Source: Psychromonas sp. SA13A
GTDB lineage: Bacteria > Pseudomonadota > Gammaproteobacteria > Enterobacterales > Psychromonadaceae
Length of the DNA stretch: 64,000 bases
Direction: 5' to 3'
Assembly: GCF_011378715.1 (NCBI RefSeq)
Contig: NZ_WTKU01000001.1
Span: 62,001-126,000 of the forward strand
Shown here: positions 2,739 to 26,104 of the stretch, piece after piece
Layout: each line of letters begins with the position of its first letter
Position numbering within the stretch: the stretch's first letter is position 1
Translations under genes and position numbers: made by a program
Notes under the pieces: generated by a model
Databases searched by the model: none
What the model saw: only the letters and a program-made list of their open reading frames with translations
What the model was told of the DNA's origin: nothing

Positions 2739-3395
2739 GGTTTATATGTAATTTACGCCTCATCAAGGCAAGTTCTTTAACCTTAACTTCTAACCTTTAA
2801 CCTTTAACTTCTAAAAGTTGTATGTTTATCCCCAAGCTCCTAAATCGGTTGGTGTGTGGTCAACTGATTTTGGCCAAATTCACGCATTCAAGTAAATGTC
2901 TTCGCTCAAAGACTTATTCTATAAACATTAAAATAAATAGTTTGATGCAATTAAAACGAAGACAATCTTTATCGGCTAGTTGAATAACTCACATCCCCTC
3001 TTACTATAAATCTAGAAACCTTAATTTAATCGTCTAAATTACTAAACTAGTATAAGGCTGACATTGAATTATAGTATCGAAATTCTAAGTCGTTTACGCG
3101 CATAAGGGAACCTACAAATCATTACATAGTGACCAAATTAATTTACTAATGTGAGGCTTTCTTTTGGATAAAATGACCATGTGTATTTTCACAAACTGAG
3201 GTATGTTTAGACACCTATAGACCCTGTTATCTCTTAATGCGAGTGATTAGGTCACTATGTAAATTCTATTAACTTAAACAAGGGTAAGACGCACCAATTA
3301 TTTGAGTTCTAATTATATGCGCTTGTATTTGTACAAAGAGTTTATTTATGCAAGTATACAGAGGTAACGAACGTTAAATCTATTAAGGGCAATCT
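2739..3395. other. Long intergenic region holding one inverted-repeat element
   Basis: No credible gene in 657 bases. It holds an inverted-repeat element at 3122-3262 (listed separately) and AT-rich sequence that must include the hpf promoter. Short runs of a CTTTAAC-like motif occur at 2776-2812. Nothing else recognised. Confidence 0.6.
3122..3262. repeat. 141-bp element with perfect 13-bp terminal inverted repeats
   Basis: The left end reads TTACATAGTGACC (3122-3134) and the right end is its exact reverse complement, GGTCACTATGTAA (3250-3262). The 115 bases between carry no open frame. The layout is that of a small non-autonomous transposable element (MITE). No clear target duplication is visible in the flanks, so age or mechanism cannot be judged. 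Confidence 0.5.
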
Positions 3396-3755
3396 ATGAA
3401 AATAAATATTTCCGGTCACCATGTTGATGTTACTGATAGCATCAAAGAGCACTTAGAAGAAAAATTCGCTAAAATATCTACGCATTTCCCCACACTTATC
3501 TCGCTAGATGTGATCATTTCCAAAGAGCATGATGAGTTTAATGTTGAGATTAGCACCAATTATGAAGGCACCAGCATTGCTGTTAAAGGCAACAATGCAG
3601 TTATGTACCCAGCTATTTCAAATGCAGCTAAAAAATTAGATACCGTGTTAAAACACCGTAAAGGTCAATTAAAAGCAGATTTACATGAAAAGCCTGAGCT
3701 GATTGAACCTGAAAGTGATGATGAAATTGAAGAAGAAGAAACTAACTTAAATTAG
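3396..3755 (+). CDS. hpf: Ribosome hibernation promoting factor / ribosome-associated inhibitor
   Basis: A 119-residue short-type HPF/RaiA protein. It binds the small ribosomal subunit in stationary phase or cold and silences idle ribosomes. The single S30AE domain runs from residue 1 (MKINISGHHVDVTDSIKEHL) to about 95, followed by an acidic tail of Glu and Asp (about residues 99-116). Acidic tails of this sort are more typical of YfiA/RaiA than of E. coli HPF, so assignment between the two paralogues is open. A Shine-Dalgarno AAGGG precedes the ATG. The gene is monocistronic, with a strong terminator immediately after it. It is not in the rpoN operon where E. coli hpf lies. Confidence 0.9.
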   Translation: MKINISGHHVDVTDSIKEHLEEKFAKISTHFPTLISLDVIISKEHDEFNVEISTNYEGTSIAVKGNNAVMYPAISNAAKKLDTVLKHRKGQLKADLHEKPELIEPESDDEIEEEETNLN

Positions 3756-3780
3756 TCTACTCGATTAAGCCAATCATATT

Positions 3781-3810
3781 AAAACGCAGCCTCGCTGCGT
3801 TTTTTGTTTT
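3781..3810 (+). terminator. Rho-independent terminator of hpf
   Basis: Stem AACGCAGC / GCTGCGTT with a CTC loop, followed by a run of T. It lies 26 bases after the hpf stop. Confidence 0.9.
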
Positions 3811-3880
3811 AGTACGATAAAAACCTCGCAGAAACCTTCCATTTGCACTTTTAAAATAACGCCCCTGTTTTCTAAAAAAT

Positions 3881-3896
3881 GATAATCGTGATTATC
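3881..3896. promoter_or_regulatory. Palindrome resembling a Fur box
   Basis: GATAATCGTGATTATC is a perfect 7+2+7 palindrome of the kind found in Fur operators; the 19 bases ending at 3896 match the classical Fur consensus at 13 positions by eye. No annotated gene follows closely on either strand, so its target is unclear. Confidence 0.35.
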
Positions 3897-4003
3897 CGCT
3901 AACTAGATAACCAAACTTAGTTGACCATTTCACTTTGTGTTACGAAGAAAAATTGACCAAATATTATAGTTTTCCAAATCGTTTGGTACAGTTTCGTACA
4001 CAA

Positions 4004-4042
4004 TTTTCTAGGGCGCTTTGGGGCACAAAGCGCCCTAGAAAA
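4004..4042. repeat. Perfect 17-bp stem hairpin, 5-base loop
   Basis: The arm TTTTCTAGGGCGCTTTG (4004-4020) is repeated as an exact reverse complement at 4026-4042 around the loop GGGCA. On both strands the stem ends in A rather than T, so it is not a textbook terminator. It is G+C-richer than its surroundings and sits at the left edge of the accessory block. Confidence 0.6.
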
Positions 4043-4057
4043 ATTACCGATAGATAC

Positions 4058-4082
4058 AAAAAAGGCAACCATGTAGGTCGCC
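4058..4082 (-). terminator. Probable terminator for the dehalogenase transcript
   Basis: Read on the minus strand, GGCGACC / GGTTGCC (one mismatch) around a 5-base loop is followed by six T. It lies about 160 bases after the stop of the dehalogenase gene at 4239. Confidence 0.5.
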
Positions 4083-4238
4083 TCCAAGGGCTCTTTAGAG
4101 ATTTGAAGTTGGGGTTATGCTAAATACAGAAATGCACCTAACAAGCATTCCTATGCATATCTCGTTAATAAGAGTTTAAGTACAGCGCTATTAAAAATGT
4201 TTTACTCTGCATCGCTTACTTATTCAAATGCCCCATCA

Positions 4239-5069
4239 TTATTTATTAATACGACGATACCAATCATAGATAGCCCTGCCAATTGCATAAGGATTGTCTT
4301 CTTGCACATAGTGAATACCCTCACCAATATAAGATATCTGTATATTTTTAGCGCGAGTTTCCCAATAATCAGCGGCTTCTGGTGGGTTTTGAGAGCCCGG
4401 TGTTGCGTACAAATATAACCATGGAATGTCAGTATTTTCAAGCCAAGTATTGTAGTCGCTGATCACTTTGGTAGTGACTGCGGGCTCACCTCCAATCGGT
4501 ATTTCCAAAGGCCATTGGTAAACCTGTATACGGGATTTTTCAGTCGGAAATGGCTTTAGATACTCTTCGTGTGTAGCTTTGTCTAACGGACGAACAATAG
4601 CACCCGGTAGCGCAACTTCGAGAAACCAGTTATCTTCGATAATCAGTTTATGTCCTTTAATAGGATCACGAACCATTTTAGAAAATTCAGCTTTTTTATG
4701 AGGATAATCTTCGTAGCTCTTTGCCGGAAGAAGAGGTGCCATAAGCGCTTCCATCGTCACAATCGCTTTAATCCTTGATTCATTCAAACGAGCATAATGT
4801 AAACCAAGTCCAGAGCCCCAATCGTGGACAACTAAGGTAATGTTTTGAAGGTCCATTTTTTTCATAAATGCATCAAAATATAGATAATGATCTTCAAATG
4901 TATAATTTAACTCTGGCTGATCAGATTTACCAAAGCCGATATTATCAGGTGCAATTAAACGACCTTGCGATTCTAAGTGTGGCATGATGTTACGCCATAA
5001 ATAAGATGATGTTGGTTCACCGTGTAAGAATAAAATAGGATCGCCTTCGCCAACGTCTATGTAAGCCAT
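4239..5069 (-). CDS. Haloalkane dehalogenase-like alpha/beta hydrolase, N-terminus interrupted by an in-frame stop
   Basis: Haloalkane dehalogenases hydrolyse carbon-halogen bonds to give alcohol and halide. Numbering from ATG 5069, the nucleophile is Asp83 in VVHDWGSGLG, the acid Glu107 in TMEAL and the base His253 in GIHYVQED; Trp84 is the first halide-binding residue. The second halide residue, Asn in DhaA/LinB-type enzymes, is Glu18 (LHGEPTSSYLW), as in DhlA. The open frame is about 25 residues short of the family. Upstream, in the same frame, lies a start at 5147 with a good GGAG site, MNLQLTTEIPSTTK, a TAA at 5103-5105, then more family-like sequence leading into MAYIDVGEG. Translation may restart at 5069 (AGGA six bases before it), giving a trimmed enzyme, or the gene may be decaying. 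It follows the AhpD-like gene in the same direction. Confidence 0.8.
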   Translation of the reverse strand: MAYIDVGEGDPILFLHGEPTSSYLWRNIMPHLESQGRLIAPDNIGFGKSDQPELNYTFEDHYLYFDAFMKKMDLQNITLVVHDWGSGLGLHYARLNESRIKAIVTMEALMAPLLPAKSYEDYPHKKAEFSKMVRDPIKGHKLIIEDNWFLEVALPGAIVRPLDKATHEEYLKPFPTEKSRIQVYQWPLEIPIGGEPAVTTKVISDYNTWLENTDIPWLYLYATPGSQNPPEAADYWETRAKNIQISYIGEGIHYVQEDNPYAIGRAIYDWYRRINK

Positions 5070-5254
5070 CTTAGATCCTAAAATATCGATAAATTGATGG
5101 GTTTACTTAGTCGTTGATGGAATTTCAGTTGTTAATTGTAAGTTCATATTATCTCCAAAACCTACCACAAACGATAGGCTAATTTATTAGGGATCAGGTT
5201 TAGGTTAATCACTATCAGTCATGATGACGCATGAGTATGTTCATATTGTCAGGT

Positions 5255-5809
5255 TTATACTTTCTTCTGCCATGCAAATTTTTGAAATGGTTTATCCACT
5301 GGCGTATTAGCAATATGGTTTACATAGTTACTGATAGTCTTTTGAGAAAGTCCCAAAATAATATCTAGCACTTGTTGTTGCTCGTAGCCTGCATCATAAA
5401 AAGCACTCAGCTCCTCTGTTGATACTTGTCCACGTTTGCGAACAATACTCAATGTCAAATCTAACAACGCTTGTAATTTAGGTGTTGGCATTGGTAGTTG
5501 ATCTCGCAATGCCTTTGTCAATGCAGGGTCTACTTTCATCATGTTTGCAATAGCAGTATGAGCAGGTACACAGTAAGTACAGCCATGTTCGATATTAATT
5601 CCTTGCCATACGACGGTTAATTCTTCTGCATTAAATGAAGACTGAATGAAAAGGTTATTAAGTTCATTATAGGCAATAAGCAGTTCTGGAGATTCTGCAA
5701 TAATGCCATGCAGGTTAGCAATCATGCGGTTCTTTTTAAGAGAAGTCGCTAATAACGGTTTACTTTTTTCTGGTGCAGTTTCTAGGGTATGAATAGTAAA
5801 TGTGTTCAT
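5255..5809 (-). CDS. Carboxymuconolactone decarboxylase / AhpD-family protein
   Basis: A 184-residue protein of the CMD/AhpD superfamily. The catalytic CxxC-xxxH motif is present in EHGCTYCVPAHT: Cys77, Cys80 and His84. Members are thiol peroxidase-like reductases or decarboxylases; with both cysteines present a redox role is more likely than decarboxylation. Residues 90-180 form the helical bundle of the family. It is the first gene of a minus-strand pair with the dehalogenase at 4239, 107 bases apart, and is divergent from the LysR regulator at 6045, which probably controls it. A GGAG site lies nine bases before the ATG. The physiological substrate is unknown. Confidence 0.8.
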   Translation of the reverse strand: MNTFTIHTLETAPEKSKPLLATSLKKNRMIANLHGIIAESPELLIAYNELNNLFIQSSFNAEELTVVWQGINIEHGCTYCVPAHTAIANMMKVDPALTKALRDQLPMPTPKLQALLDLTLSIVRKRGQVSTEELSAFYDAGYEQQQVLDIILGLSQKTISNYVNHIANTPVDKPFQKFAWQKKV

Positions 5810-5825
5810 GGTATTAACTCCAATA

Positions 5826-5840
5826 TTGATAAGGTATCAA
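5826..5840. promoter_or_regulatory. Palindrome in the AhpD/LysR intergenic region
   Basis: TTGATAAGGTATCAA is a perfect 6+3+6 palindrome 17 bases upstream of the AhpD-like start, in the region shared with the divergent LysR gene. It could be an operator; LysR proteins usually bind T-N11-A palindromes and this one is close to that design. Confidence 0.35.
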
Positions 5841-6044
5841 CTCAGTCATTCACTGTATTGATTAATTGGTTGTTATTATTCCTTAAAAAACACATCAGAT
5901 AATCAGAGGTTTTTCCCATTGATTAGGGGGTTATTTGCTACAATAGAAGTCTAAGTGTAATAAAAAGTGCTAACTGGCTACTTTGAGTGGGATATTGCAA
6001 ACAATAAGCCGATATGTAGTTTTGTGCTGACGAGGACTTTTATC

Positions 6045-6998
6045 ATGGATATAGCAACAAGATTAGATCTGTTTTTCGATGTCGTTAAGCAAGGTTCTTA
6101 TACCAAAGCGGCTAATCTTCGAAATATAGATAGATCATCATTATCTAAACAAATAAAAATGTTAGAAGATGAACTAGGAACTCGTTTACTTAATCGTTCA
6201 ACACGTTCTTTATCATTAACAGAAGCAGGAAAAGAAGTACTTAAACAAGCAGAATTAGTGAGGCAAACCATTGCAGATACTCACCGGATTGTTGAATCTT
6301 TCCACAGTCAGCCTAAGGGCCTGCTTCGAATCACCAGCCCGACTTTATTTGGCAAACAATACGTACAAAAAGCTATCATAAAATTTATGAAAGCTTATCC
6401 AGATGTCCATATTCAACTCATTTTAGATAATAAAAAACGCAGTATAATCGAAGATAAATATGATATTGCCTTTCGTATTGGACAGGCACAGGATTCCAAC
6501 TTAATCGCACGAAAGCTAGCAGTGAATAAACCGATTTTATTAGCTTCAAAAGGTTTTCTAAAAGAATATGGGACACCACAAACACCACAAGAATTGTTCG
6601 CACTACCGGCCGTTGTATATGCAAATGACGGTTTAGTTGTGAATCGAATTACCATTGGTGCTGACTCGAAATTAACGCCTGGCGTAATATGGGAGCTTCA
6701 AGGGAAATATCGAGTTAATGAGCCGGAACTTATTCTTGATGCCATTAAATCGGGTATTGGCTATGGAATGCTGGGCGCTTATATGCTCGATAAAAATATC
6801 AAAGAATATGGACTGGTGCCACTGCTGACCAATTACACCTTGCCTGAAACATTAGGCGATATTCATGCACTATACCCGCATCGTAACCCAACCCCATTAG
6901 TGAATAAATTCATAGATACGATAAAAGAGGTGATTGGTGAGACGCCAATTTGGGAAAGTTATATTGACAATTTTTCTGATTATTACAAAAAGAACTAA
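6045..6998 (+). CDS. LysR-family transcriptional regulator
   Basis: A 317-residue LysR regulator. The N-terminal winged helix-turn-helix (about residues 4-62) reads LFFDVVKQGSYTKAANLRNI followed by RSSLSKQIKMLEDELG. The rest is the two-lobed effector-binding domain beginning near LLRITSPTLFGKQYV. The frame is open back to a GTG at 5967, but the ATG at 6045 has GAGG upstream and matches the usual start of the HTH. It is divergent from the AhpD-like/dehalogenase pair, the normal arrangement for a LysR protein and its target. The ligand is unknown; a halogenated or oxidised compound is only a guess from context. Confidence 0.9.
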   Translation: MDIATRLDLFFDVVKQGSYTKAANLRNIDRSSLSKQIKMLEDELGTRLLNRSTRSLSLTEAGKEVLKQAELVRQTIADTHRIVESFHSQPKGLLRITSPTLFGKQYVQKAIIKFMKAYPDVHIQLILDNKKRSIIEDKYDIAFRIGQAQDSNLIARKLAVNKPILLASKGFLKEYGTPQTPQELFALPAVVYANDGLVVNRITIGADSKLTPGVIWELQGKYRVNEPELILDAIKSGIGYGMLGAYMLDKNIKEYGLVPLLTNYTLPETLGDIHALYPHRNPTPLVNKFIDTIKEVIGETPIWESYIDNFSDYYKKN

Positions 6999-7098
6999 AT
7001 TAGGCTGGACTTGTTATTTGATGTCCATTAATCACTTTACACATACTAAGTTTTTGTGGCTGAGTAATATTAGCCACAAGTTTGTAGGTTTCTAAATT

Positions 7099-7123
7099 GC
7101 TTTGGGGGCGGAAGCATTTTGCT
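7099..7123. repeat. Imperfect direct repeat, left copy
   Basis: This stretch shares the pattern GCT-NN-GGGGGCG-N-AAGC followed by ATTTTGCT with 14058-14083 (one indel and about three mismatches). It contains a hairpin, CGGAAGCA / TGCTTCCG, and lies just beyond the end of the recombinase gene. It could be an attachment-site remnant or a terminator. Confidence 0.3.
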
Positions 7124-7146
7124 TCCGGATAGCATTATATTGATGA

Positions 7147-7743
7147 TCATGTATCTGTTGACTCTGAAATTGTTAATGCATCTTCAATCTCTACACCTAA
7201 ATACTCAATAGTACTTTCTAATTTTGAGTGGCCTAAAAGTAGCTGTATTGCTCGAAGATTTTTTGTTTTAGTATAGATTAAAGATGCTTTAGTTCTTCTA
7301 AGTGAATGGGTATTGTATTGAGTAATATCTAAGCCAAGTTTATCAACCCATTGTTTAACTATATTTGAATAGTAATGGTAACTAATATGGTAATTTTCCT
7401 TTCTGGGACTAGGAAATAAATAGTCGACAGGTTTTAAATCTTTACTATGGATCCAAATATTTAAACATTGCTGTGTTTTGGAGGTGATTTCAAATTGGAC
7501 TTCTCGGTGTGTTTTCTTTTGTTCTATTATCGCCCTAGATTGAATTAGTGAGCCTGTGCAAATATCACGTACCTTGAGCTTAATTAAGTCACTTGACCGA
7601 AGCTTGCTATCAATTGCCAAATTAAATAAAACTAACTGTTCAAGCTTATTTTCTAATTCTAACCGTATACGAATTCGCCAAATTTCCTCTAATTTAAATG
7701 CTTTTTTCTGACCGACTCGCTTTCCTTTATTCCATGCTTTCAT
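7147..7743 (-). CDS. Short tyrosine recombinase / integrase
   Basis: A 198-residue tyrosine recombinase made of little more than the catalytic domain. The residues needed for strand exchange are all present: Arg49 (SKLRSSDL), Lys76 or Lys77, His146 and Arg149 (HSLRR), His172 (LLGHSKLEST) and the nucleophile Tyr181 (IEYLG). Full-length integrases carry an extra N-terminal arm and core-binding domain of about 150 residues, missing here; this short type (beginning MKAWNKGK) recurs as a stand-alone gene in many proteobacteria. It sits between the two halves of the dehalogenase block. From memory, putative integrase genes lie beside dhaA in Pseudomonas pavonaceae 170 and Mycobacterium GP1, so the association has precedent. 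Its target site is unknown. Confidence 0.85.
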   Translation of the reverse strand: MKAWNKGKRVGQKKAFKLEEIWRIRIRLELENKLEQLVLFNLAIDSKLRSSDLIKLKVRDICTGSLIQSRAIIEQKKTHREVQFEITSKTQQCLNIWIHSKDLKPVDYLFPSPRKENYHISYHYYSNIVKQWVDKLGLDITQYNTHSLRRTKASLIYTKTKNLRAIQLLLGHSKLESTIEYLGVEIEDALTISESTDT

Positions 7744-7907
7744 AATCTACTCCTATTGAATGGTGTAGTAGGAGCGTTATGTAATTCTGTTTCGAAAGCA
7801 AAGTATGGGGCACATAGCGACTTAAAAATTCATCTCTAAATGAGTAGTTAAACCTATGAACTACCATAAATAGCGCTCTTTTTAATTGCGTAGAATATCG
7901 GTTTTTT

Positions 7908-8573
7908 CTAGCCAAGTTCGAGTATTAAATTTCGAATCTGATCAGCCAGCTCAGGTGATTTAATTAAAGCACCATGACAAGGCAGTAAAATTTTAGGCGG
8001 TGAAATTTCAATAAGTTGCATTACCGCGCTGGCAAAGACTTTTCGATCTTTAATACCAAAATTAGGAAATACTTTAACCATTTTTACAATGTCACATATT
8101 GGGCCTTCAGTATGTTTTTGGCCAGCAAAGGCATCCACAACATGCCAAATATAGCCAATCTGCGCTGACTCTATAAGCCAAACCTCACCATTTTTCAAAC
8201 CACTGGGTTCTTCCAAGGTAAGCCCGTCTGGTAGTGCACTGGCTAGCGATGATAATTCTTTGAACGTTAGTCCTGTCTTGCTAGTCAAGCGTGCATGAGC
8301 ACTCTCAGATGCCACCAGATGAGCTTTGGGGTAGGCTTTTGAGTACTCTACCAAACCAGCATTATGGTAGGTATTGGGGGCGAGTAGATACTTGACATCG
8401 CCTAATTCGATTAGGCTATTTTTAGCCTCTTCACTGAGGCCTGACACTGGACTATATAAACAAACGCCACCTATTCTCAGTTTAATAGCCGTGCATCTAA
8501 GGCTATTTTTGGTGGCGGTATATAATGTAGCAGAGCCATCGACTGCTTCAAACTTGGATAATTTAGCTGCCAT
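7908..8573 (-). CDS. DUF4336-like / metallo-beta-lactamase-fold protein
   Basis: A 221-residue protein starting at ATG 8573, which has AAGGAAG before it; the frame is open to a TTG at 8597. It resembles DUF4336, a branch of the metallo-beta-lactamase fold: LLAPNTYHNAGLVEYSKAYP (about residues 63-82) fits the region where these proteins carry metal ligands, and LPCHGALI near the C-terminus supplies a late histidine. The canonical HxHxDH motif is absent, as in DUF4336, so hydrolase activity is uncertain. It lies downstream of the dehalogenase at 8709 on the same strand, 135 bases away, and may be at the end of that operon. Confidence 0.6.
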   Translation of the reverse strand: MAAKLSKFEAVDGSATLYTATKNSLRCTAIKLRIGGVCLYSPVSGLSEEAKNSLIELGDVKYLLAPNTYHNAGLVEYSKAYPKAHLVASESAHARLTSKTGLTFKELSSLASALPDGLTLEEPSGLKNGEVWLIESAQIGYIWHVVDAFAGQKHTEGPICDIVKMVKVFPNFGIKDRKVFASAVMQLIEISPPKILLPCHGALIKSPELADQIRNLILELG

Positions 8574-8708
8574 CGGTACTTCCTTTGTCGTGGTCAAATT
8601 ATAGTGTCAAATTATAGCGGTCAAATAAATCTGCTCATGGTTCCGTAGTCTACCCAATATAACGCTTAAGCATTTTTTCTATTTGACCACTAGCCCTATA
8701 ATTAGTGT

Positions 8709-9608
8709 TTATTTAATAACTTTTTTATACCAATCGACAATACCTTCACCAATTTCGTGTGGATGTGACTCTTGTAGATAATGCTTTCCTTCACCTAAAT
8801 CTACTGCAGTAATATTTTTCCACGTTTCAGCGATATGCTCACCTAATTCTCGATTAATGATTAGTCCTGGCTCTGCATAAAATAACAACTTAGGCACATC
8901 TGAATTTTTGTGGTATTCATTATATGAATTAACAATGTCAGTGGTAAATTTTGGGACGCCATCAAAAGAAATTTGACCAGGCCACATAAGCAGTGGTTTA
9001 CGGCTCTTTTCTTCCAAATAAGGCGCTCGGTAATGGTCCATTTCTTCTTGAGTTAATTCTCTGCCCGCCATCATGGGTAGCATAGCCTCAATAAAGAAGT
9101 TGTTTTTAACAATCATTTCATGCCCTTCTGCAGGGTCACGAAATTTTTTAAATAATGTTTCTGTCTCTTTAGTCGTATTTTTCCAATAAGAAACTTGAGA
9201 CATAGCTTCAAAAAAAACAATCCCTTTTATATTTTCTCTATGCTGATTGGCATAGTTAAAACCTAAAGCAGAACCCCAATCTTGAATGACTATAATGATA
9301 TTTTTTAAGGCTAACTTTTCAATAAACGCATCTAAATAGGTAATATGGTCTTCAAATGTATAATCTATATCGGGCTTGTCAGACTTACCCATTCCAATAA
9401 GATCAGGAACAACCACACGACCTAAGGCACTTACATACGGAATGATGTTTCGCCATAAATAACTTGATGTAGGGTTTCCGTGTATGAGTAAAAAAGTATC
9501 TTTAGAATTTTTGTCTCCTTCATCTACATAATGCATTTTAGAATCTAATACTACTTGAAATTTAGATTCAAAAGGAAACGCTGCTGATATTGGTTTGTTG
9601 TTTGACAT
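8709..9608 (-). CDS. Haloalkane dehalogenase, DhaA/LinB type (subfamily II)
   Basis: A full-length 299-residue haloalkane dehalogenase. All five key residues of subfamily II are visible: nucleophile Asp110 with halide-binding Trp111 (VIQDWGSALGF), halide-binding Asn45 (IHGNPTSSYLWRN), acid Glu134 (FFEAM) and base His276 (GKHYLQE). The cap domain spans about residues 140-215. The reaction is hydrolysis of a terminal carbon-halogen bond in the cytoplasm, through a covalent alkyl-enzyme ester. It is the last dehydrogenase-cluster gene of a co-directional run from 13242 and follows the AlkD-like gene by only 20 bases, so the two are surely co-transcribed. Substrate range cannot be read from sequence. 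It is the best-preserved of the three dehalogenases here. Confidence 0.9.
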   Translation of the reverse strand: MSNNKPISAAFPFESKFQVVLDSKMHYVDEGDKNSKDTFLLIHGNPTSSYLWRNIIPYVSALGRVVVPDLIGMGKSDKPDIDYTFEDHITYLDAFIEKLALKNIIIVIQDWGSALGFNYANQHRENIKGIVFFEAMSQVSYWKNTTKETETLFKKFRDPAEGHEMIVKNNFFIEAMLPMMAGRELTQEEMDHYRAPYLEEKSRKPLLMWPGQISFDGVPKFTTDIVNSYNEYHKNSDVPKLLFYAEPGLIINRELGEHIAETWKNITAVDLGEGKHYLQESHPHEIGEGIVDWYKKVIK

Positions 9609-9628
9609 ATTTATTCCTTTTTAAATGT

Positions 9629-10327
9629 TTAAATTGAATTTTTGCGATTTAAAACTCTTGCTGCTTTTCTAATTTGCTTCAGTTTTTCTCGTTTTGTTTT
9701 ATCCCACTTTTCTGTACCCGCGCTATATCCGTAAGCACAAATTTTAGTTGCGTTTTCAAATAGAAATCCTTCCTGCTCTTTAGGGTATATATTTCCTATT
9801 TCTCTAAGTGTCCAACCCACTCCTTTTTCAACATAATAAGCGTGGTCAGAAATTAAAGGTACTACCAAATCTATAAGTACTTGAAAAGGTAAATAGTGTT
9901 TTCTATGAGCGCTGTAATAAAGTAAACCCACTATGCTTTGTCTTCTATGCCATGGGTTTGTAGACGTATTCCATTTTTTATACGTTGGCAAAATTAATGC
10001 TGCATCATATTCTACTAATTGAGCATATATTTTTGAAATGCCATCGCTTGTTTCCCATCGATTAATTTTGTCTTGCCATAATTTAATCGTTGGCCAAGCG
10101 GCCAGCATTTCATCTTTGTTTTTAATATGCTCCTCCAAGAAATACAAACAAAACATTTCTGCTCTATACACTTTTGTGTTCGTCCAGATATAACTCCATA
10201 TCGCTAGTTGTTTATCAAAAGGCAATTGCTTAAAAGAAAAACCTCCTTCAAAAGCTTTTCTTTGCAAAGGAACGGTTTCAACAGCTTTAGAAGTGATTGT
10301 TTCTATTTCTTGAAGGTAGTTTTGCAT
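9629..10327 (-). CDS. AlkD-like DNA alkylation repair protein
   Basis: A 232-residue all-helical protein resembling the AlkD family of DNA glycosylases, built from HEAT-like repeats that remove N3- and N7-alkylated purines. The family-typical repeats are seen in NPWHRRQSIVGLLYY (about residues 127-141) and the segment around HAYYVEKGVGWTLREIGNIYP; the Trp and Arg of the latter correspond to residues lining the DNA-binding cleft. A basic C-terminal tail follows. It lies in a run of genes for haloalkane metabolism and is 20 bases from the dehalogenase at 8709. Haloalkanes are DNA-alkylating agents, so repair of collateral damage is an attractive reading, but that link is inference. Confidence 0.75.
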   Translation of the reverse strand: MQNYLQEIETITSKAVETVPLQRKAFEGGFSFKQLPFDKQLAIWSYIWTNTKVYRAEMFCLYFLEEHIKNKDEMLAAWPTIKLWQDKINRWETSDGISKIYAQLVEYDAALILPTYKKWNTSTNPWHRRQSIVGLLYYSAHRKHYLPFQVLIDLVVPLISDHAYYVEKGVGWTLREIGNIYPKEQEGFLFENATKICAYGYSAGTEKWDKTKREKLKQIRKAARVLNRKNSI

Positions 10328-10406
10328 ATTATTTAAAACTCTAATATTAATAGCTTCTTTCGCTAATATATTATTTTATAGTGGTTAGCGAATCGTTGGT
10401 TATAAA

Positions 10407-11051
10407 TTAATTGCTAGCGGTTAATGCCGAGCTAATTACTTCATTACCATGATAAAGTTCAAATATCTGGTTACTGACTTCGTCACGATTAATGTAATAC
10501 TCTATTGATTTAGCGACATCTTCTCTGCTAATGAATAAATCATTCGTAGAAGTCGAACGCGTGGTTGTTATGAGCCCGTTGCCTTTATCATTAGTCAGGC
10601 TTCCCGGTCTAAGAATGGTGTAATTTAGGCCACTGGATAATAGGTACTGATCGGCAAAATACTTTGCCACCAAATAGGGTTTTATTTCTGATTCAAATTC
10701 GTCAGGGTCTTGTGCGCCTAAACCACTTACCATTACAAAATGTTGTATACCTTCCTTTAAAGAATAATCAACTGCTTTTTTTGCTGCCCATAAATCTATT
10801 AGAAGTGTTTTATCGTCGCCTGTATTACCGCCAGAACCTGCACTAAATACTACTTTATCGCAGTCCTTAAAAGCGTGTTCAAAATCAGTTTCAAGATCGC
10901 CAACAACAGCCTCTACACCCATATTTTCTAACTTCTCAGCTTGTTGTTTGCTACGAACCATTGCGACAACTGGGCGATCCTGATTGTGAAGCAACTCAAC
11001 CACTATTTTACCAATCTGGCCATTAGCGCCAATAATGAGTGTTTTTTTCAT
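10407..11051 (-). CDS. NAD(P)-binding atypical SDR / NmrA-like oxidoreductase
   Basis: A 214-residue Rossmann-fold protein. The dinucleotide-binding motif is GANGQIG at residues 8-14, followed by a second-strand MVRS that favours NADP. It belongs to the atypical short-chain dehydrogenases (NmrA/YwnB-like), with FVMVSGLGAQ at the usual catalytic-serine position, Tyr/Lys in YLVAKYFAD, and ILRPGSL downstream. It is in the dehalogenase operon, 80 bases after the classical SDR. Such proteins act as quinone or aldehyde reductases or redox sensors; the substrate here is unknown. Confidence 0.8.
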   Translation of the reverse strand: MKKTLIIGANGQIGKIVVELLHNQDRPVVAMVRSKQQAEKLENMGVEAVVGDLETDFEHAFKDCDKVVFSAGSGGNTGDDKTLLIDLWAAKKAVDYSLKEGIQHFVMVSGLGAQDPDEFESEIKPYLVAKYFADQYLLSSGLNYTILRPGSLTNDKGNGLITTTRSTSTNDLFISREDVAKSIEYYINRDEVSNQIFELYHGNEVISSALTASN

Positions 11052-11131
11052 TTTTTATACCTTTTAAAGCAACTGTTTCACGTTGACCTGCCAAACAAAA
11101 TACAAAAAAGGCAGGATCAACTCACATTAGA

Positions 11132-11872
11132 TTAGAAGTCTTGAATTGTTGGTCTGATAATAATTTCGTTAATATCGACATCATCTGGTTGTTCAATCGC
11201 ATAGGCGACAGCTTTAGCAATAGATAACGCTGGAATAGCGACTTTATAAATATCTTGAACAAATTGAGAGGTGGCTTCATCCGAACTACCGAATTTTAAT
11301 TCAGAATCAATTAAGCCAGGTGATAATAGCGTTGTACGTATATTGCCACCCACTTCCGCTCTCAATCCTTCTGTTATCGCTTTAACCGCAAATTTTGTAC
11401 CGCTATAGACAGCCGAACCCGGTGAAACTTTATGTGCAGCAACGGAAGCGAGATTAATAAAGTGACCACTATTTTGTTTGGTAAACACGGGAAGTGCAGC
11501 GGCGATACCGTAAAGTACCCCTTTGATATTAATGTCGACCATGCGATCCCATTCATCAACCTTAACCTCAGCCATCGGAGCAATTGACATCAAGCCGGCA
11601 TTATTGACCATGACATCTAAGCGTCCAAAAGTCTCAATCGCCTTGTCGACAAGCATTTTAACCTGATCGGATTTGGTGACATCCATCGTGACATATTCAG
11701 CTTCGCCACCCTCAGCACGAATATCATTTACGATAGCTGCTAGTTTTTCACTACGACGCGCACCCAATACGACTTTAGCACCTTTTTGAGCCAGAAAACG
11801 CGCAGTTGCTTCACCTAAACCACTGCTTGCACCCGTTATAACAATCACTTTATTTTCTATATTTGTATTCAT
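11132..11872 (-). CDS. Classical short-chain dehydrogenase/reductase
   Basis: A 246-residue classical SDR. The cofactor motif TGASSGLG (residues 14-21) is followed by ARRSEKL, whose arginines suggest NADP. NNAG lies in the middle and the catalytic Ser...YxxxK is in NLASVAAH and VYSGTKFAV. It is 10 bases downstream of the DhlA-type dehalogenase gene on the same strand, so the two are co-transcribed. An alcohol made by dehalogenation would be a logical substrate, as alcohol dehydrogenases follow dehalogenases in known pathways, but closely related SDRs act on many ketones and alcohols. Confidence 0.88.
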   Translation of the reverse strand: MNTNIENKVIVITGASSGLGEATARFLAQKGAKVVLGARRSEKLAAIVNDIRAEGGEAEYVTMDVTKSDQVKMLVDKAIETFGRLDVMVNNAGLMSIAPMAEVKVDEWDRMVDINIKGVLYGIAAALPVFTKQNSGHFINLASVAAHKVSPGSAVYSGTKFAVKAITEGLRAEVGGNIRTTLLSPGLIDSELKFGSSDEATSQFVQDIYKVAIPALSIAKAVAYAIEQPDDVDINEIIIRPTIQDF

Positions 11873-11882
11873 TGGATATAGC

Positions 11883-12794
11883 CTATTTATTATTCATTTC
11901 TAAGTGAACAAGCGCTTTTTCTGCAATTTCAACACCGTATTCTTGAACAAAGTGTCCTGCTTCTGCAATTTTTAAGGGCTCAGGGCAGCCTTTAATAAAG
12001 CTTCTTAAGTACTCCATTGGGCCTTCGCCTAAAGCTGTATCTTTCATGCCTATCGCCATGAAACTTTGACCGTTCCAGTCTTTTGACCAAAACTCTCTTG
12101 CGCGTTTTCCGTGCTCAACACCATCCATCGTTGGCTCGACAGGCACCATGGCGGGAAAGCGTCTTACGCCTGCTTTATAGCTGTTGTCTGGAAATGGCGC
12201 ATCGTAAGCTATAACATCCATCACAGATACGGCTGGCCCTGCGTCACAGGCAAATAAACCACCGACTGGTATTTCAGGGGCATTTGCGCAGAAATCTCGC
12301 CACTGATAAAACCCTTCAGGGGCGGTTTCACCCACCGATATTGCCGTGTTCATAACAATCAAATTTTTGAATCGATCTTGCATATCCATTGGGATTGTTA
12401 ACCCTAGAATTCCGCCCCAGTCTTGACAGACCAACGTAATATTTTTCAGATCAAGGCGTTCAATTAATCGCATTAAACTATCACGGTGAAAATCAAAGGT
12501 ATAAACCGATTCATCAACGGGTTTATCTGAACGACCAAAGCCAAACAAATCAGGCGCAACAACACGATGACCAGCGCCCGTAAATATAGGAAGCATTTTT
12601 CTATATAAGTAGCTCCATGAAGGCTCACCGTGTAAACATAAAAAAGTGTTTTCAGATGAGGAATCACCCTCGTCGATGTAGGCCATGCGTAAAGACTCAA
12701 AACCAGCTAAATCATCAATGTAGTTAGGTTGGTAAGGAAAGGCCGGTAATACAGAGAATCTTTCTTCTGGTGTTCTTAATGCTTTAATCGTCAT
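11883..12794 (-). CDS. Haloalkane dehalogenase, DhlA type (subfamily I)
   Basis: A 303-residue enzyme closely resembling Xanthobacter DhlA. The nucleophile is Asp125 with halide-binding Trp126 (VCQDWGGILGL), Glu57 lies in LHGEPSWSYLYRK, the acid is Asp252 in GMKDTALG and the base His281 in AGHFVQEYG. A tryptophan in the cap segment EGFYQWRDF fits the second halide-binding Trp of DhlA. Positions differ from DhlA by one at the nucleophile, so the N-terminus is complete. A GGAG site precedes the ATG. It is the second gene of the TetR-associated run, 67 bases after the membrane protein and 10 bases before the SDR. Activity on short dihaloalkanes would be expected by family; not provable here. Confidence 0.9.
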   Translation of the reverse strand: MTIKALRTPEERFSVLPAFPYQPNYIDDLAGFESLRMAYIDEGDSSSENTFLCLHGEPSWSYLYRKMLPIFTGAGHRVVAPDLFGFGRSDKPVDESVYTFDFHRDSLMRLIERLDLKNITLVCQDWGGILGLTIPMDMQDRFKNLIVMNTAISVGETAPEGFYQWRDFCANAPEIPVGGLFACDAGPAVSVMDVIAYDAPFPDNSYKAGVRRFPAMVPVEPTMDGVEHGKRAREFWSKDWNGQSFMAIGMKDTALGEGPMEYLRSFIKGCPEPLKIAEAGHFVQEYGVEIAEKALVHLEMNNK

Positions 12795-12861
12795 AATATT
12801 TCTCCTGAAAAGTAGTTTATTTAAGTTAATGTTATCAATGCTAAAATTATTAATTTATAAG

Positions 12862-13242
12862 TTACTGAGTTTTGCCTAAAAATAGGGATTTAAAGGGCTG
12901 CTCGGATGCTCGCATACTGCCAATGATGTAAACAAAGGCGGTAATAAGATCCATGACAGAAATATAGACAAAGATCTTTGGTACCAAGCCTAATGAAGCG
13001 GCATATGTAACAATGATAAAGCCGACCATTCTTACCAATCCGTTCCAAACAATAAGAGGGGCACGGGTTTTAATGTCTGAAGTAGCCCAAAGTAACGCAG
13101 CGCCCATAAGCATAAAAGATACGCCCAATACCACCGTGATAATTAACGTGTCTGCTTGAGGTGCCATCAGCGCTGAAATAATCATGCCTAGTGCGATTGG
13201 AAAGTTGAATAGAGCAGTAATTTGTACGAATTTTTTAAACAT
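12862..13242 (-). CDS. Small four-helix membrane protein, function unknown
   Basis: A 126-residue inner-membrane protein beginning at ATG 13242 (MFKKFVQITALF); the frame is open further back but the extension would run through the operator region. Four hydrophobic segments are visible at about residues 8-28, 36-56, 66-88 and 92-112. I do not recognise the family. It is the first gene of the dehalogenase run, directly downstream of the operators, so it is the gene most directly regulated by the divergent TetR protein. A transport or stress role is possible; there is no motif to say. Confidence 0.65.
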   Translation of the reverse strand: MFKKFVQITALFNFPIALGMIISALMAPQADTLIITVVLGVSFMLMGAALLWATSDIKTRAPLIVWNGLVRMVGFIIVTYAASLGLVPKIFVYISVMDLITAFVYIIGSMRASEQPFKSLFLGKTQ

Positions 13243-13267
13243 TTTTAGTTCACTTATTTTATACTTA

Positions 13268-13283
13268 TGAAGCGATCGCTTCA
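13268..13283. promoter_or_regulatory. TetR-type operator 1
   Basis: TGAAGCGATCGCTTCA, a perfect 16-bp palindrome, placed just after the inferred transcription start of the dehalogenase run. It shares its arms with two further sites at 13299 and 13342. Confidence 0.75.
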
Positions 13284-13294
13284 GAATTGAGTTA

Positions 13295-13323
13295 ATTGTG
13301 AAGCGATCACTTTGTAATGTCAA
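13295..13323 (-). promoter_or_regulatory. Promoter of the dehalogenase operon
   Basis: On the minus strand TTGACA (13323-13318), a 17-base spacer and CACAAT (13300-13295) form a good sigma-70 promoter pointing to the membrane protein at 13242. Operator 2 fills its spacer and operator 1 follows its start. Confidence 0.6.
13299..13314. promoter_or_regulatory. TetR-type operator 2
   Basis: TGAAGCGATCACTTTG keeps the left arm of operator 1 exactly and most of the right. It overlaps the spacer of the minus-strand promoter, where binding would block RNA polymerase. Confidence 0.65.
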
Positions 13324-13332
13324 TAGGGCGAA

Positions 13333-13361
13333 TTGACATTTTGAAGTGACTGCTTCAAAAT
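13333..13361 (+). promoter_or_regulatory. Promoter of the tetR gene
   Basis: TTGACA (13333-13338), 17 bases, then CAAAAT (13356-13361), pointing to the TetR gene at 13396. Operator 3 lies across its spacer and touches the -10, implying autorepression. Confidence 0.6.
13342..13357. promoter_or_regulatory. TetR-type operator 3
   Basis: TGAAGTGACTGCTTCA, the third copy of the palindrome, within the tetR promoter. The three copies share TGAAG-Y-GA on the left arm. Confidence 0.7.
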
Positions 13362-13395
13362 AGAGTTAATTAATATTATTTTTAAGGGCCACAGA

Positions 13396-13998
13396 GTGAA
13401 AGCAGGACGAAAAAGAGCGTTTGATAAAGAAGTCGTTTTAGATAAAGCGATGCGGTTATTTTGGGCCAATGGGTTCTCGGGTACTTCTGTTGCTAATCTT
13501 TCTTCTGAACTTGGCATTAATACGTCGAGTTTGTACGGAACGTTTGGCAATAAAGAACAGTTATTCAAAGACTCACTGGTTCATTATGTTAAGCAATACG
13601 TTGCAGCTAATTACAAACACCTAGTAGATCCATCAAATGCAACATTAAAAGAGCGATTACAAACTTGTTTCTATGGGCTTATTGAGCTGTTCACTAATAA
13701 TGAGACTCCCCGTGGATGCTTACTCGTAAAAAGTGTTAATGAATCAGACAGTGTTGCGTTTCCAGAAGACGTGGTTGTTTATATAGAAAAATCAGGAACA
13801 GAAACTCAGCAAATACTGACGGATTTATTCGCGTCTGGCATTACGAAGACTGATATGCCCAAAGGTCAAACAGCTGAAAAACTTGCTACGTATCTATTGT
13901 CAATTAGTTATGGCATTGCCGTTCAAGCAAAGGCTGGTAAATCGGAAGAAGAGTTAAAGTCAGTCCTTGATCATAGTTTGAATTCTATTTTTGCTTAA
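13396..13998 (+). CDS. TetR-family transcriptional regulator
   Basis: A 200-residue TetR repressor with a GTG start. The N-terminal helix-turn-helix spans about residues 10-57 (RLFWANGFSGTSVANLSSEL, then GINTSSLYGTFGNKEQLF). The C-terminal ligand-binding domain contains the ETPRGCLLVKS segment common in regulators of reactive-compound detoxification. It is divergent from the dehalogenase run and its start region carries three copies of one palindrome, so it very likely represses both itself and the run. In Rhodococcus the repressor of dhaA, DhaR, is also TetR-like, from memory; direct homology is not claimed. The inducer is unknown; a haloalkane or derived alcohol is plausible. Confidence 0.92.
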   Translation: MKAGRKRAFDKEVVLDKAMRLFWANGFSGTSVANLSSELGINTSSLYGTFGNKEQLFKDSLVHYVKQYVAANYKHLVDPSNATLKERLQTCFYGLIELFTNNETPRGCLLVKSVNESDSVAFPEDVVVYIEKSGTETQQILTDLFASGITKTDMPKGQTAEKLATYLLSISYGIAVQAKAGKSEEELKSVLDHSLNSIFA

Positions 13999-14057
13999 AG
14001 CTAGTTAAGTATCATGACTAACTACTGTAGGATATAAATTTTTAGTCTTAGTAAGTC

Positions 14058-14083
14058 GCTAAGGGGGCGAAAGCGATTTTGCT
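14058..14083. repeat. Imperfect direct repeat, right copy
   Basis: Partner of 7099-7123: GCT-NN-GGGGGCG-N-AAGC then GATTTTGCT, in the same orientation, 75 bases after the end of tetR. The pair encloses the recombinase and the whole TetR-controlled cluster. Confidence 0.3.
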
Positions 14084-14200
14084 AATGACACTCCTTATTG
14101 AAAGCGAACCTAGTTTTTAGAAGAAGTTTAAGCTAGCAAACTGAATAGTGATACAAGCATAAGTCAGTTGACATGCCCTTCTAATTCCAACCCCTACCAG

Positions 14201-14234
14201 TAAATTTAGACAAACCTTAGTTTGTCTAAATTTA
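14201..14234. repeat. Perfect 15-bp stem hairpin, 4-base loop
   Basis: TAAATTTAGACAAAC (14201-14215) and its exact reverse complement (14220-14234) flank the loop CTTA. It lies 36 bases from the end of the BaiN-like gene on the minus strand. Without a T tract it is not a classical terminator, though it may stall transcripts. Confidence 0.6.
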
Positions 14235-14269
14235 ATTACCTTTGTCTATAATTTAAATACCCTACCACA

Positions 14270-15505
14270 CTACACATCTTGTCCTGCTGCCCAGCCGCAG
14301 CTCCAACACCATGCAAAATTAAACCCCCCGAGCCAACCGGTCACGTCCATTGCTTCACCCACAAAATATAAGCCTTTAACGGATTTACATTCCATGGTTT
14401 TAGAGGAGATCACATCGGTATCAACACCACCTAGTGTCACTTCTGCCGTCCTATACCCCTCGGTGCCATTAATTAACGGTTGCCATTGATGAAATAATGC
14501 CACAATTTGTTGTAGCTCTTTTTCATTGAACTGTTTTAACGGACGACTTTCAATTTCAGCCAAGCCTAGCAAACACTCTACCACTCGTTTAGGTAGGTGT
14601 TGAGACAGCAATGTTTTAAGCGCTAGTTCAGGGCGATCTTGTTGTGTCTGTGTCAATAAGCTTTGCAGATCTTGACTGGGTAATAGATCTATCAAGATGG
14701 TATCACCAGCCTGCCAGTAGTTTGATATTTGTAAAATAACCGGTCCGCTCAAGCCTCGATGAGTAAATAACAAAGCCTCACTAAAGCTCATGGGCGTTTC
14801 TTTTTTAGCATGCCCTTTTTTATCTGACTCTTTACCTGCCACGTCTTTTTTAATGGCAGTAGCGGTAGCGGGAAAACTAATCCCAGATAATTCAATGAGT
14901 TTATCTTTGAGTACCGGTTGTAATGTAAAAGGCACTAAGCCTGCACGGGTTGGTTTAACGGGTAAGTTATATTTTTCAGCTAATTGATAAGCAAAAGGTG
15001 TAGCACCTAATTTAGGCAGAGATAAACCGCCCGTCGCAACCACTAATGACTGACATTTAAAATCACCTTGGTTGGTTTGTACGGCAAAGTCGTTGTCTGC
15101 TATTTTCTGGTGGTCGATGACTTCACATTGCGTTTTAATGGTAACACCTGCCGCTTGTGCTTCATCTAACAGCATTTTTACTATTTGCTTTGCGCTATCA
15201 TCACAGAATAGTTGCCCGTGGTCTCGCTCATGCCAACTGATATTGTGTTTGTCCACCAGCGCAATAAAGTCCCACTGTGTGTATCGGCTTAATGCTGATT
15301 TTACAAAGTGTGGATTACTACATAGGAAGTTGCTCGGCTCTACGTATAAGTTGGTAAAGTTACAACGCCCGCCACCACTCATTATTATTTTTTGGCCAAT
15401 ACGTTTTGCGTGTTCAATGAGTAAGACTTTACGGCCACGTTTGCCCGCTTCAATTGCACACATCAAACCTGACGCACCTGCGCCAATAATAATTACATCA
15501 AACAT
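14270..15505 (-). CDS. BaiN/YhiN-family FAD-dependent oxidoreductase
   Basis: A 411-residue flavoprotein of the HI0933/BaiN family (E. coli YhiN). The N-terminal FAD-binding motif is IIGAGASGLMCAIEAGKRG (residues 6-24), followed by LLIEHAKRIGQKIIMSGGGR, and the second FAD contact is GLYFVGEAMDVTGWLGGFN near the C-terminus. Family members may be NAD(P)/FAD-dependent reductases of uncertain substrate. A lysine-rich insertion near residues 228-245 is unusual for the family. It stands alone and borders the accessory block at its right end. Confidence 0.88.
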   Translation of the reverse strand: MFDVIIIGAGASGLMCAIEAGKRGRKVLLIEHAKRIGQKIIMSGGGRCNFTNLYVEPSNFLCSNPHFVKSALSRYTQWDFIALVDKHNISWHERDHGQLFCDDSAKQIVKMLLDEAQAAGVTIKTQCEVIDHQKIADNDFAVQTNQGDFKCQSLVVATGGLSLPKLGATPFAYQLAEKYNLPVKPTRAGLVPFTLQPVLKDKLIELSGISFPATATAIKKDVAGKESDKKGHAKKETPMSFSEALLFTHRGLSGPVILQISNYWQAGDTILIDLLPSQDLQSLLTQTQQDRPELALKTLLSQHLPKRVVECLLGLAEIESRPLKQFNEKELQQIVALFHQWQPLINGTEGYRTAEVTLGGVDTDVISSKTMECKSVKGLYFVGEAMDVTGWLGGFNFAWCWSCGWAAGQDV

Positions 15506-26074: not shown

Positions 26075-26104
26075 ATGAAGCAATCACTTAATACTAATAA
26101 ATGA
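26075..26104 (+). CDS. Nine-codon leader ORF overlapping the histidine kinase start
   Basis: ATG at 26075 preceded by GGGAAG encodes MKQSLNTNK; its TGA shares bases with the kinase start (ATGA at 26101-26104). The kinase itself has no good ribosome binding site of its own, so coupled translation through this leader is plausible. Confidence 0.4.
   Translation: MKQSLNTNK

Follow-up and report, generated by a model that had tools for sequence, protein, structure and literature searches.

What do two haloalkane dehalogenases of different subfamilies do in a gene run that also encodes a protein of a DNA alkylation repair family? The known substrates of the haloalkane dehalogenase families are small halocarbons, and the natural role of these enzymes is unsettled. 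The run lies in a 64,000-nucleotide stretch of Psychromonas sp. SA13A (contig NZ_WTKU01000001.1, positions 62,001 to 126,000), called the window below and numbered from its first letter. ORF coordinates and family models bore out the preliminary description of six same-strand genes, with their families, order and gaps, and of a divergent TetR gene. On the minus strand, with intergenic gaps of 67, 10, 80, 79 and 20 bases, these genes encode a small membrane protein of 126 aa (12862..13242, the first ATG giving 13242), a subfamily I haloalkane dehalogenase (HLD-I, 11883..12794), a classical short-chain dehydrogenase/reductase (SDR, 11132..11872; PF00106, 183.8 bits), an atypical NAD(P)H-binding SDR (10407..11051; PF13460, 157.1 bits), an AlkD-family DNA alkylation repair protein (9629..10327), and a subfamily II haloalkane dehalogenase (HLD-II, 8709..9608). 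No Pfam family scored above its cut-off for the membrane protein, and the name DoxX, which lacked Pfam support, was dropped. Promoter-like sites (18, against 19.3 in shuffles) and terminator-like sites (4, against 4.6) were not in excess; the sole operon-strand terminator-like site within the operon, at 10559-10541, lies inside a gene and in none of the gaps. The unit is longer than first described: a seventh minus-strand gene 3′ of HLD-II (7908..8597) is recognisable in five of the six other copies found (see below) and interrupted in two of those, L106 and L107. Its product gave 19.3 bits to DUF4336, under the cut-off of 28.5, and might possibly have a metallo-beta-lactamase-like fold. A third dehalogenase-like gene was seen at 4239-5069, about 3.6 kb from the operon.

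Both dehalogenases scored above the cut-offs of their family models (HLD-I, 343.7 against 265 bits for NF002043; HLD-II, 365.1 against 241 bits for NF002938), and HLD-I matched PDB 7avr, which we take to be DpaA of Paraglaciecola agarilytica, with 513.7 bits. HLD-I residues D125, W126, W165, D252, and H281, presumably the nucleophile Asp with its adjoining Trp, the second Trp, the acid Asp and the base His, are unchanged in four aligned HLD-I proteins. HLD-II aligns to a solved HLD-II-type chain, and its N45, D110, W111, E134, and H276, placed by motif position, would be the Asn, Asp-Trp, Glu, and His that we assume to form the catalytic set. Their dN/dS is 0.08 for HLD-I and 0.12 for HLD-II.

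The AlkD-family protein exceeded the PF08713 cut-off (65.7 against 21 bits) and matched no NCBIfam model. To our knowledge, AlkD2 is without glycosylase activity. The predicted structure is all-helical (pLDDT 70.5), and in Foldseek only the SMU.31 match had E < 0.001, AlkD itself being found at E 0.011 and TM 0.53; SMU.31/AlkD2 structures ranked ahead of AlkD in both the single-sequence search and Foldseek, which counts against a repair function. In a profile alignment, W91, D95, and W172 fell on Trp109, Asp113, and Trp187 of Bacillus cereus AlkD, residues named as catalytic in PMC8626424, and this Trp/Asp/Trp set is unchanged in all six intact copies. AlkD is under purifying selection (dN/dS 0.23 across six copies; Fisher p 2.5e-8 for the most divergent pair).

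The plus-strand TetR-family repressor gene (13396..13998; PF00440, 46.8 bits) encodes a relative of CifR (chain 6nsn, 96.7 bits). Cys91 and Cys108 of the protein are unchanged in all 14 aligned relatives, and Cys108 aligns with the CifR cysteine that was changed to Ser in entry 6nsm. A palindrome scan of the spacer between the repressor gene and the operon detected a perfect operator-like palindrome, TGAAGCGATCGCTTCA, at 13268..13283. Two others, each with two mismatches, lie at 13299..13314, where the palindrome overlaps the spacer of a promoter-like site that faces the operon, and at 13342..13357, where the mismatches are to TGAAGYGATCRCTTCA and the palindrome falls within the spacer of another such site, which faces TetR. 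When two mismatches at most were allowed, the operator pattern occurred at 21 genomic places compared to 7 for the reversed control, and in the genome-wide scan only the TetR-operon spacer had three such palindromes close together. Other sites were not accepted as members of a wider regulon, among them one at window position 26076, before a histidine-kinase gene, and one at 36616, inside an AICARFT/IMPCHase gene. Operator-like sites also occur elsewhere in the genome, so that their specificity may be limited, a point against the reading proposed below. We regard the three as putative operators, faced by a regulator whose sequence makes it a relative of an epoxide-responsive repressor. Certain epoxides make CifR leave its DNA, as described in PMC8244358.

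The locus is probably a horizontally mobile operon under repressor control, whose products detoxify alkylating halogenated compounds and repair the resulting damage. Its genes would be co-transcribed and functionally linked. An electrophile (a haloalkane, haloepoxide or similar) would be sensed by the CifR-like repressor, which would then leave its palindromic operators. HLD-I and HLD-II would hydrolyse different halocarbons to alcohol and halide, the two SDRs would act on alcohol or carbonyl products, and the AlkD-family protein would excise N3/N7-alkylpurines that arise while detoxification is still incomplete. In two of the seven copies (L107 and L108, the latter also having a second PF08713 gene), the unit has an AlkZ/YcaQ-type glycosylase gene next to it, whose product could cover crosslinks in those two hosts. 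A more specific form of the proposal, to which we give slightly less than even credence, is a dedicated operon in which one electrophile-sensing repressor co-regulates halocarbon hydrolysis and base excision of adducts, and which travels among marine bacteria as a resistance cassette.

The same proteins could instead protect against one particular genotoxic natural product, such as an antibiotic or algal metabolite that carries a halogen or an epoxide, with the hydrolases and SDRs destroying the toxin and AlkD and AlkZ removing bulky or crosslinking adducts. This would resemble YtkR2-/AlkZ-type self-resistance, but in the target organism rather than the producer. We consider it unlikely, as no particular toxin is indicated and both dehalogenases pass the cut-offs of haloalkane dehalogenase models, whose members are known to act on small halocarbons. 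In its favor, the regulator most closely resembles one that responds to epoxides, and both glycosylase families present here are known from genotoxin self-resistance, according to PMC8934636.

A scan of genome contigs with HLD-I as the query yielded 62 loci, and six of these, beyond the window, had the full order TetR<>membrane protein-HLD-I-SDR-atypical SDR-AlkD-HLD-II. They come from Psychromonas, Pseudoalteromonas, Psychrobacter (with one additional SDR), Marinomonas, Amphritea, and Paraglaciecola, genomes that span five families. The co-occurrence search proposed in the preliminary description thus found six further genomes, and the order is not confined to one, which was named there as a refuting outcome. 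Because it recurs in these genomes, the six-gene order is more than chance, and its retention there gives good support to a functional unit. HLD-I is 96-100% identical among the full-order copies, and the unit has moved horizontally between hosts. The window-type AlkD was absent from the other 56 HLD-I loci at E 1e-6, and the AlkD combination appears, from these sequences, to have arisen once; this apparently single origin counts against the preferred reading.

These copies also bear on whether AlkD and the second dehalogenase might be chance cargo that a mobile element acquired and that is functionally unlinked to the TetR/HLD-I core. That core occurs without AlkD in six rows of the HLD-I tree (58 of the 62 loci, the window and G127), membership varies (L108 has an extra SDR and lacks the seventh gene), and broken copies exist of AlkD, HLD-II, the membrane gene, and the seventh gene. 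The breakages weigh against detoxification and repair as well: AlkD is frameshifted in one of seven copies (G023/L106, the second Psychromonas isolate), with 9 nonsynonymous and 6 synonymous codon changes between the window and G023, HLD-II has a frameshift in L110, and the membrane gene, present in all six other copies, has an in-frame stop in L111. The selection counts left out AlkD of L106, HLD-II of L110, and the seventh genes of L106, L107, and L108; the mean dN/dS of the membrane gene was 0.21 without L111, and the value of 0.69 with L111 is an artefact of the stop. Chance cargo nevertheless seems to us improbable, a little more so than natural-product resistance, as AlkD directly precedes HLD-II in all seven copies and is under purifying selection, and a second alkyl-DNA glycosylase family adjoins two of them.

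The right end of the island carries a 29-bp imperfect palindrome (14051..14079, 25/28 scored positions), within which homology to G023 runs out at 14076-14079 and homology to L109 and L110 at 14060. At the left end, homology to G023 starts at 4020, within another palindrome (4008..4036, 25/28). Between them lie a half copy (7807..7823), where homology to L107 and L109 stops, a further copy (7092..7120, 22/28), and a gene for a small tyrosine recombinase of 198 aa (7147..7743; PF00589, 70 bits), all of these features being on the minus strand. We rejected the palindromes as intrinsic terminators, as the left-end stems are followed by A-runs, not T-runs, on both strands. They were also rejected as recombinase sites: similar ones separate unrelated genes at other places in the genus, and homology ends outside the palindromes for L110 and L111 on the seventh-gene side and for L107 and L111 on the TetR side. 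The boundary palindrome may be a REP-like repeat at which homologous recombination takes place. Plasmids were rejected as the vehicle, as neither the 6.2-kb unit nor AlkD had a match in the plasmid collection, where HLD-I matches were all below 60% identity; no AlkD or HLD-I relative was confirmed on viral contigs.

That the operon is catabolic and serves growth with haloalkanes as the carbon source is very improbable. Two dehalogenase subfamilies and SDRs could yield an alcohol and from it an aldehyde or ketone, but the operon proteins gave no match to a haloacid dehalogenase, aldehyde dehydrogenase or transporter family, and neither of the first two turned up in a scan of ten proteins encoded at 5967-13998. 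Detoxification fits better than growth because these two enzymes are missing from the operon proteins. Of the "self-protecting haloalkane degradation module" first proposed, self-protection has gained, through the AlkD catalytic residues and selection, the AlkZ-type gene in two of seven copies, and the CifR-like regulator, and degradation as a growth pathway has become weaker.

If the dedicated detoxify-and-repair operon is real, it would point to defence against genotoxic halocarbons, not nutrition, as the physiological role of haloalkane dehalogenases. An operon that is conserved and transferable and joins two HLD subfamilies to an alkylation-repair family predicts that the substrate alkylates DNA and is something the cell has to withstand. 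From this prediction follow substrates and a class of inducers that can be tested and phenotypes to look for on deletion, with possible uses as a biosensor or in a host that tolerates halocarbons during clean-up. In a collection of open-access papers, with most subscription papers lying outside it, haloalkane dehalogenase, DNA glycosylase, and AlkD never appeared together; haloalkane dehalogenase with DNA alkylation gave a single, off-topic paper, and none among the matches listed treated both haloalkane dehalogenase and DNA glycosylase.

The nearest known relatives are TetR/HLD-I core loci in Shewanella gelidii (L113), Marinomonas pollencensis (L115), Methylophaga (L116), and G127, with which we group the enzyme DpaA of P. 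agarilytica. In these four loci HLD-I is 73-76% identical to that of the window and the divergent or adjacent TetR 54-56%; all four have the membrane protein, and L116 and G127 an SDR, but none has AlkD, the atypical SDR or the window-type HLD-II alongside. The DhlA-type haloalkane pathway of Xanthobacter likewise has HLD-I as its first step, but it also uses an aldehyde dehydrogenase and a haloacid dehalogenase, which were not matched here, and we know of no repair gene in it. The Pseudomonas aeruginosa cif operon shares a CifR-type repressor divergent from an alpha/beta hydrolase operon, and CifR has more than one binding site, as the window has several putative operators; according to PMC8244358, however, its hydrolase is an epoxide hydrolase, and morB and an MFS gene stand in place of the SDR, AlkD, and dehalogenases. 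No biosynthetic family was found among the operon proteins scanned. In the YtkR2/AlkD and AlkZ/YcaQ self-resistance of genotoxin producers, as described in PMC8934636, an alkyl-DNA glycosylase is similarly linked to alkylator-handling genes, but its partners in the operon described here are dehalogenases rather than biosynthetic genes.

Recomputation of open reading frames, gaps and family scores found the preliminary description of the window's six-gene run accurate in gene families, order, spacing and divergent TetR gene. On the minus strand, from 13242 to 8709, the run begins with a 126-aa membrane protein that has no Pfam family over the cut-off and continues with an HLD-I haloalkane dehalogenase (343.7 bits against a cut-off of 265), a classical short-chain dehydrogenase/reductase (SDR), an atypical SDR, an AlkD-family protein (65.7 bits against 21), and an HLD-II dehalogenase (365.1 bits against 241), with intergenic gaps of 67, 10, 80, 79, and 20 bases. 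The TetR gene occupies 13396-13998 on the plus strand, and a seventh gene (7908-8597) follows HLD-II. The host genome comprises 4.57 Mb in 51 contigs. A third dehalogenase-like gene (4239-5069, minus strand) shares 43-44% identity with HLD-II and has His-Gly-Glu at the place of His-Gly-Asn; an in-frame stop upstream costs it about 19 residues at the N-terminus. Upstream of this gene lie one without any Pfam match (5255-5809) and then a LysR gene, and relatives of both are also found near the Amphritea copy of the run.

The preliminary description proposed looking for the same gene order elsewhere, and the order proved not to be restricted to one genome. When genome contigs were scanned with an HLD-I alignment, six of the 62 loci obtained had the whole order, spanning five families: Psychromonas (L106, in the uncultured Psychromonas genome G023), Pseudoalteromonas Z1A8 (L107), Psychrobacter fozii (L108, with an extra SDR ahead of AlkD), Marinomonas flavescens (L109), Amphritea opalescens (L110), and Paraglaciecola 20A4 (L111). 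Module-type AlkD was absent from the other 56 loci at E 1e-6. Identity among the copies is 96-100% for HLD-I and 92-100% for intact AlkD. The seventh gene lies behind HLD-II in five of the six other copies (interrupted in L106 and L107) and is absent from L108. Among 394 sampled genomes of the order, AlkD had matches at E 1e-3 in 15, close only in the own genome and G023 and at most 33% identical in the remainder; HLD-I was found in 18 (E 1e-50) and HLD-II in 8 (E 1e-40). A class-wide sample of 369 genomes held AlkD at E 1e-6 in four, the own genome counted.

Positions 4020-14076, an island containing the run, are 99.0% identical to G023, with zero differences in HLD-I and HLD-II; flanking chromosomal pieces of at least 300 bases are 77-86% identical. 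DNA identity to L107, L109, L110, and L111 is 94.3-97.1% across 6.1-6.3 kb; L108 aligns as two pieces, at 95.4% and 96.2%. In its own genome the island sits between hpf-like and YhiN/HI0933-like genes (named by eye); in G023 this pair is on a different contig from the island, which there adjoins a TniB-like gene and a transposase with a Mu C-terminal match. Each end of the island lies within a 29-bp imperfect palindrome (4008-4036 and 14051-14079). A further copy occupies 7092-7120, and homology to L107 and L109 ends at a half copy (7807-7823). A weaker match at 3085 agrees at 20 of 28 positions (in shuffles, matches of at least 20 numbered 0.2 per window). Of 24 genomes of the genus, 19 have the palindrome and none the reversed control. 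The island encodes a 198-aa tyrosine recombinase, and the palindromes may be tyrosine recombinase sites or a REP-like repeat.

We note that in the genus the palindrome, with its inverted arms, is scattered between varied genes (for example at L095 2264, at L096 2316, and in L171, L175, and L176). The hpf-like/YhiN-like interval (about 3755-14270 in the window; also L095, L096, and L097) is a genomic hotspot: its cargo differs among related genomes, it spans 7-9 kb in G009, G017, and G023, and in G023 it holds a partial YhiN duplicate. The two Psychromonas copies differ in patches (7908-14076 against locus L048): of 105 differences, 39 fall in the 500-base bin at 10020 and 24 in that at 8020, and the 5255-5809 and recombinase genes have none, as if by local recombination with other copies.

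The seven module copies grouped together in a 60-row HLD-I tree, with support (90/88) short of the tool's star; adding six TetR/HLD-I loci without AlkD gave a set of 13 that is supported (97/90). Among these six relatives, five showed the membrane protein and three the SDR. This grouping and gene content suggest that the TetR/HLD-I core is older and that AlkD, the atypical SDR, and HLD-II probably joined it once. For 50 of the 62 loci we surveyed the genomes for repair families and found PF08713 in 17 and PF06224 in 25. The 17 include the six module genomes; the remaining 11 carry the gene on a different contig from HLD-I or at a distance of over 40 kb from it (by contig and position; closed frames in three doubtful cases). 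An AlkZ-like gene was present in only L107 and L108 among the 62 loci (E 1e-6). Repair genes have thus not repeatedly joined HLD-I, and the case depends on a single mobile lineage.

It is possible that AlkD and the second dehalogenase are chance cargo. Mean dN/dS was 0.08 for HLD-I, 0.09 for the SDR, 0.33 for the atypical SDR, and 0.21 for TetR (n = 7 each), 0.23 for AlkD and 0.12 for HLD-II (n = 6 each), 0.19 for the seventh gene (n = 4), and 0.21 for the membrane gene without L111, where it has an in-frame stop. Against a combined detoxification and repair role, AlkD is frameshifted in L106 and HLD-II in L110, and AlkD codon changes between the two Psychromonas copies comprise nine nonsynonymous and six synonymous. 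A profile of the six intact AlkD copies had B. cereus AlkD as its nearest relative (E 8.4e-6) and placed Trp91, Asp95, and Trp172, invariant in all six, on Trp109, Asp113, and Trp187, described as the three catalytic residues (PMC8626424). SMU.31/AlkD2 ranked first in a single-sequence search and also in Foldseek with a modest-confidence AlphaFold model (pLDDT 70.5, residues 1-30 poor), where AlkD scored E 0.011.

Beyond TetR, L107 and L108 encode three further proteins: one of 143 aa, one of the YjbR family, and an AlkZ-like glycosylase (PF06224, 213.8 bits). The glycosylase contains Gln-Ile-Asp, a motif type reported as required for catalysis in E. coli YcaQ, whose substrates include 7-methylguanine and nitrogen-mustard crosslinks (PMC7367128). 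L108 has a second PF08713 protein in addition, and a YjbR relative also adjoins the membrane gene in the AlkD-less loci L115 and L116. Near the Marinomonas copy (L109 5509-7168) a further dehalogenase-like alpha/beta hydrolase precedes a nitroreductase gene; Vibrio superstes has a 71% relative of this hydrolase beside HLD-I (L112 11130-12074). In Pseudoalteromonas Z1A8, a UvrA-like protein gene (L107 16490-19054) lies about 1.6 kb past the seventh gene.

The operon likely serves to detoxify alkylating halocarbons and repair their DNA adducts. This retains the self-protection in the earlier proposal of a self-protecting haloalkane degradation module; growth on haloalkanes is a less likely role, as the operon lacks the later pathway steps. 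Marine macroalgae are a plausible halocarbon source; of the target genes in three algal metagenomes, those for haloalkane dehalogenases are reported to be the most abundant (PMC10919026).

The 157-bp spacer between TetR and the operon holds three operator-like palindromes of the type TGAAGCGATCGCTTCA (0, 2, and 2 mismatches), which are kept in other copies and changed in L106 and L111. Two of them overlap the spacers of divergent promoter-like sites, a class that showed no excess over chance. Under the proposed scheme, an electrophile would switch the operon on. The closest PDB relatives of TetR are the unnamed regulator 2i10 (101 bits) and CifR (96.7 bits). Cys91 and Cys108 are invariant in all 14 aligned relatives, and Cys108 aligns with the CifR cysteine that is serine in entry 6nsm. 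Certain epoxides are reported to free CifR from DNA, and epibromohydrin to induce a Cif-like gene of another species (PMC8244358).
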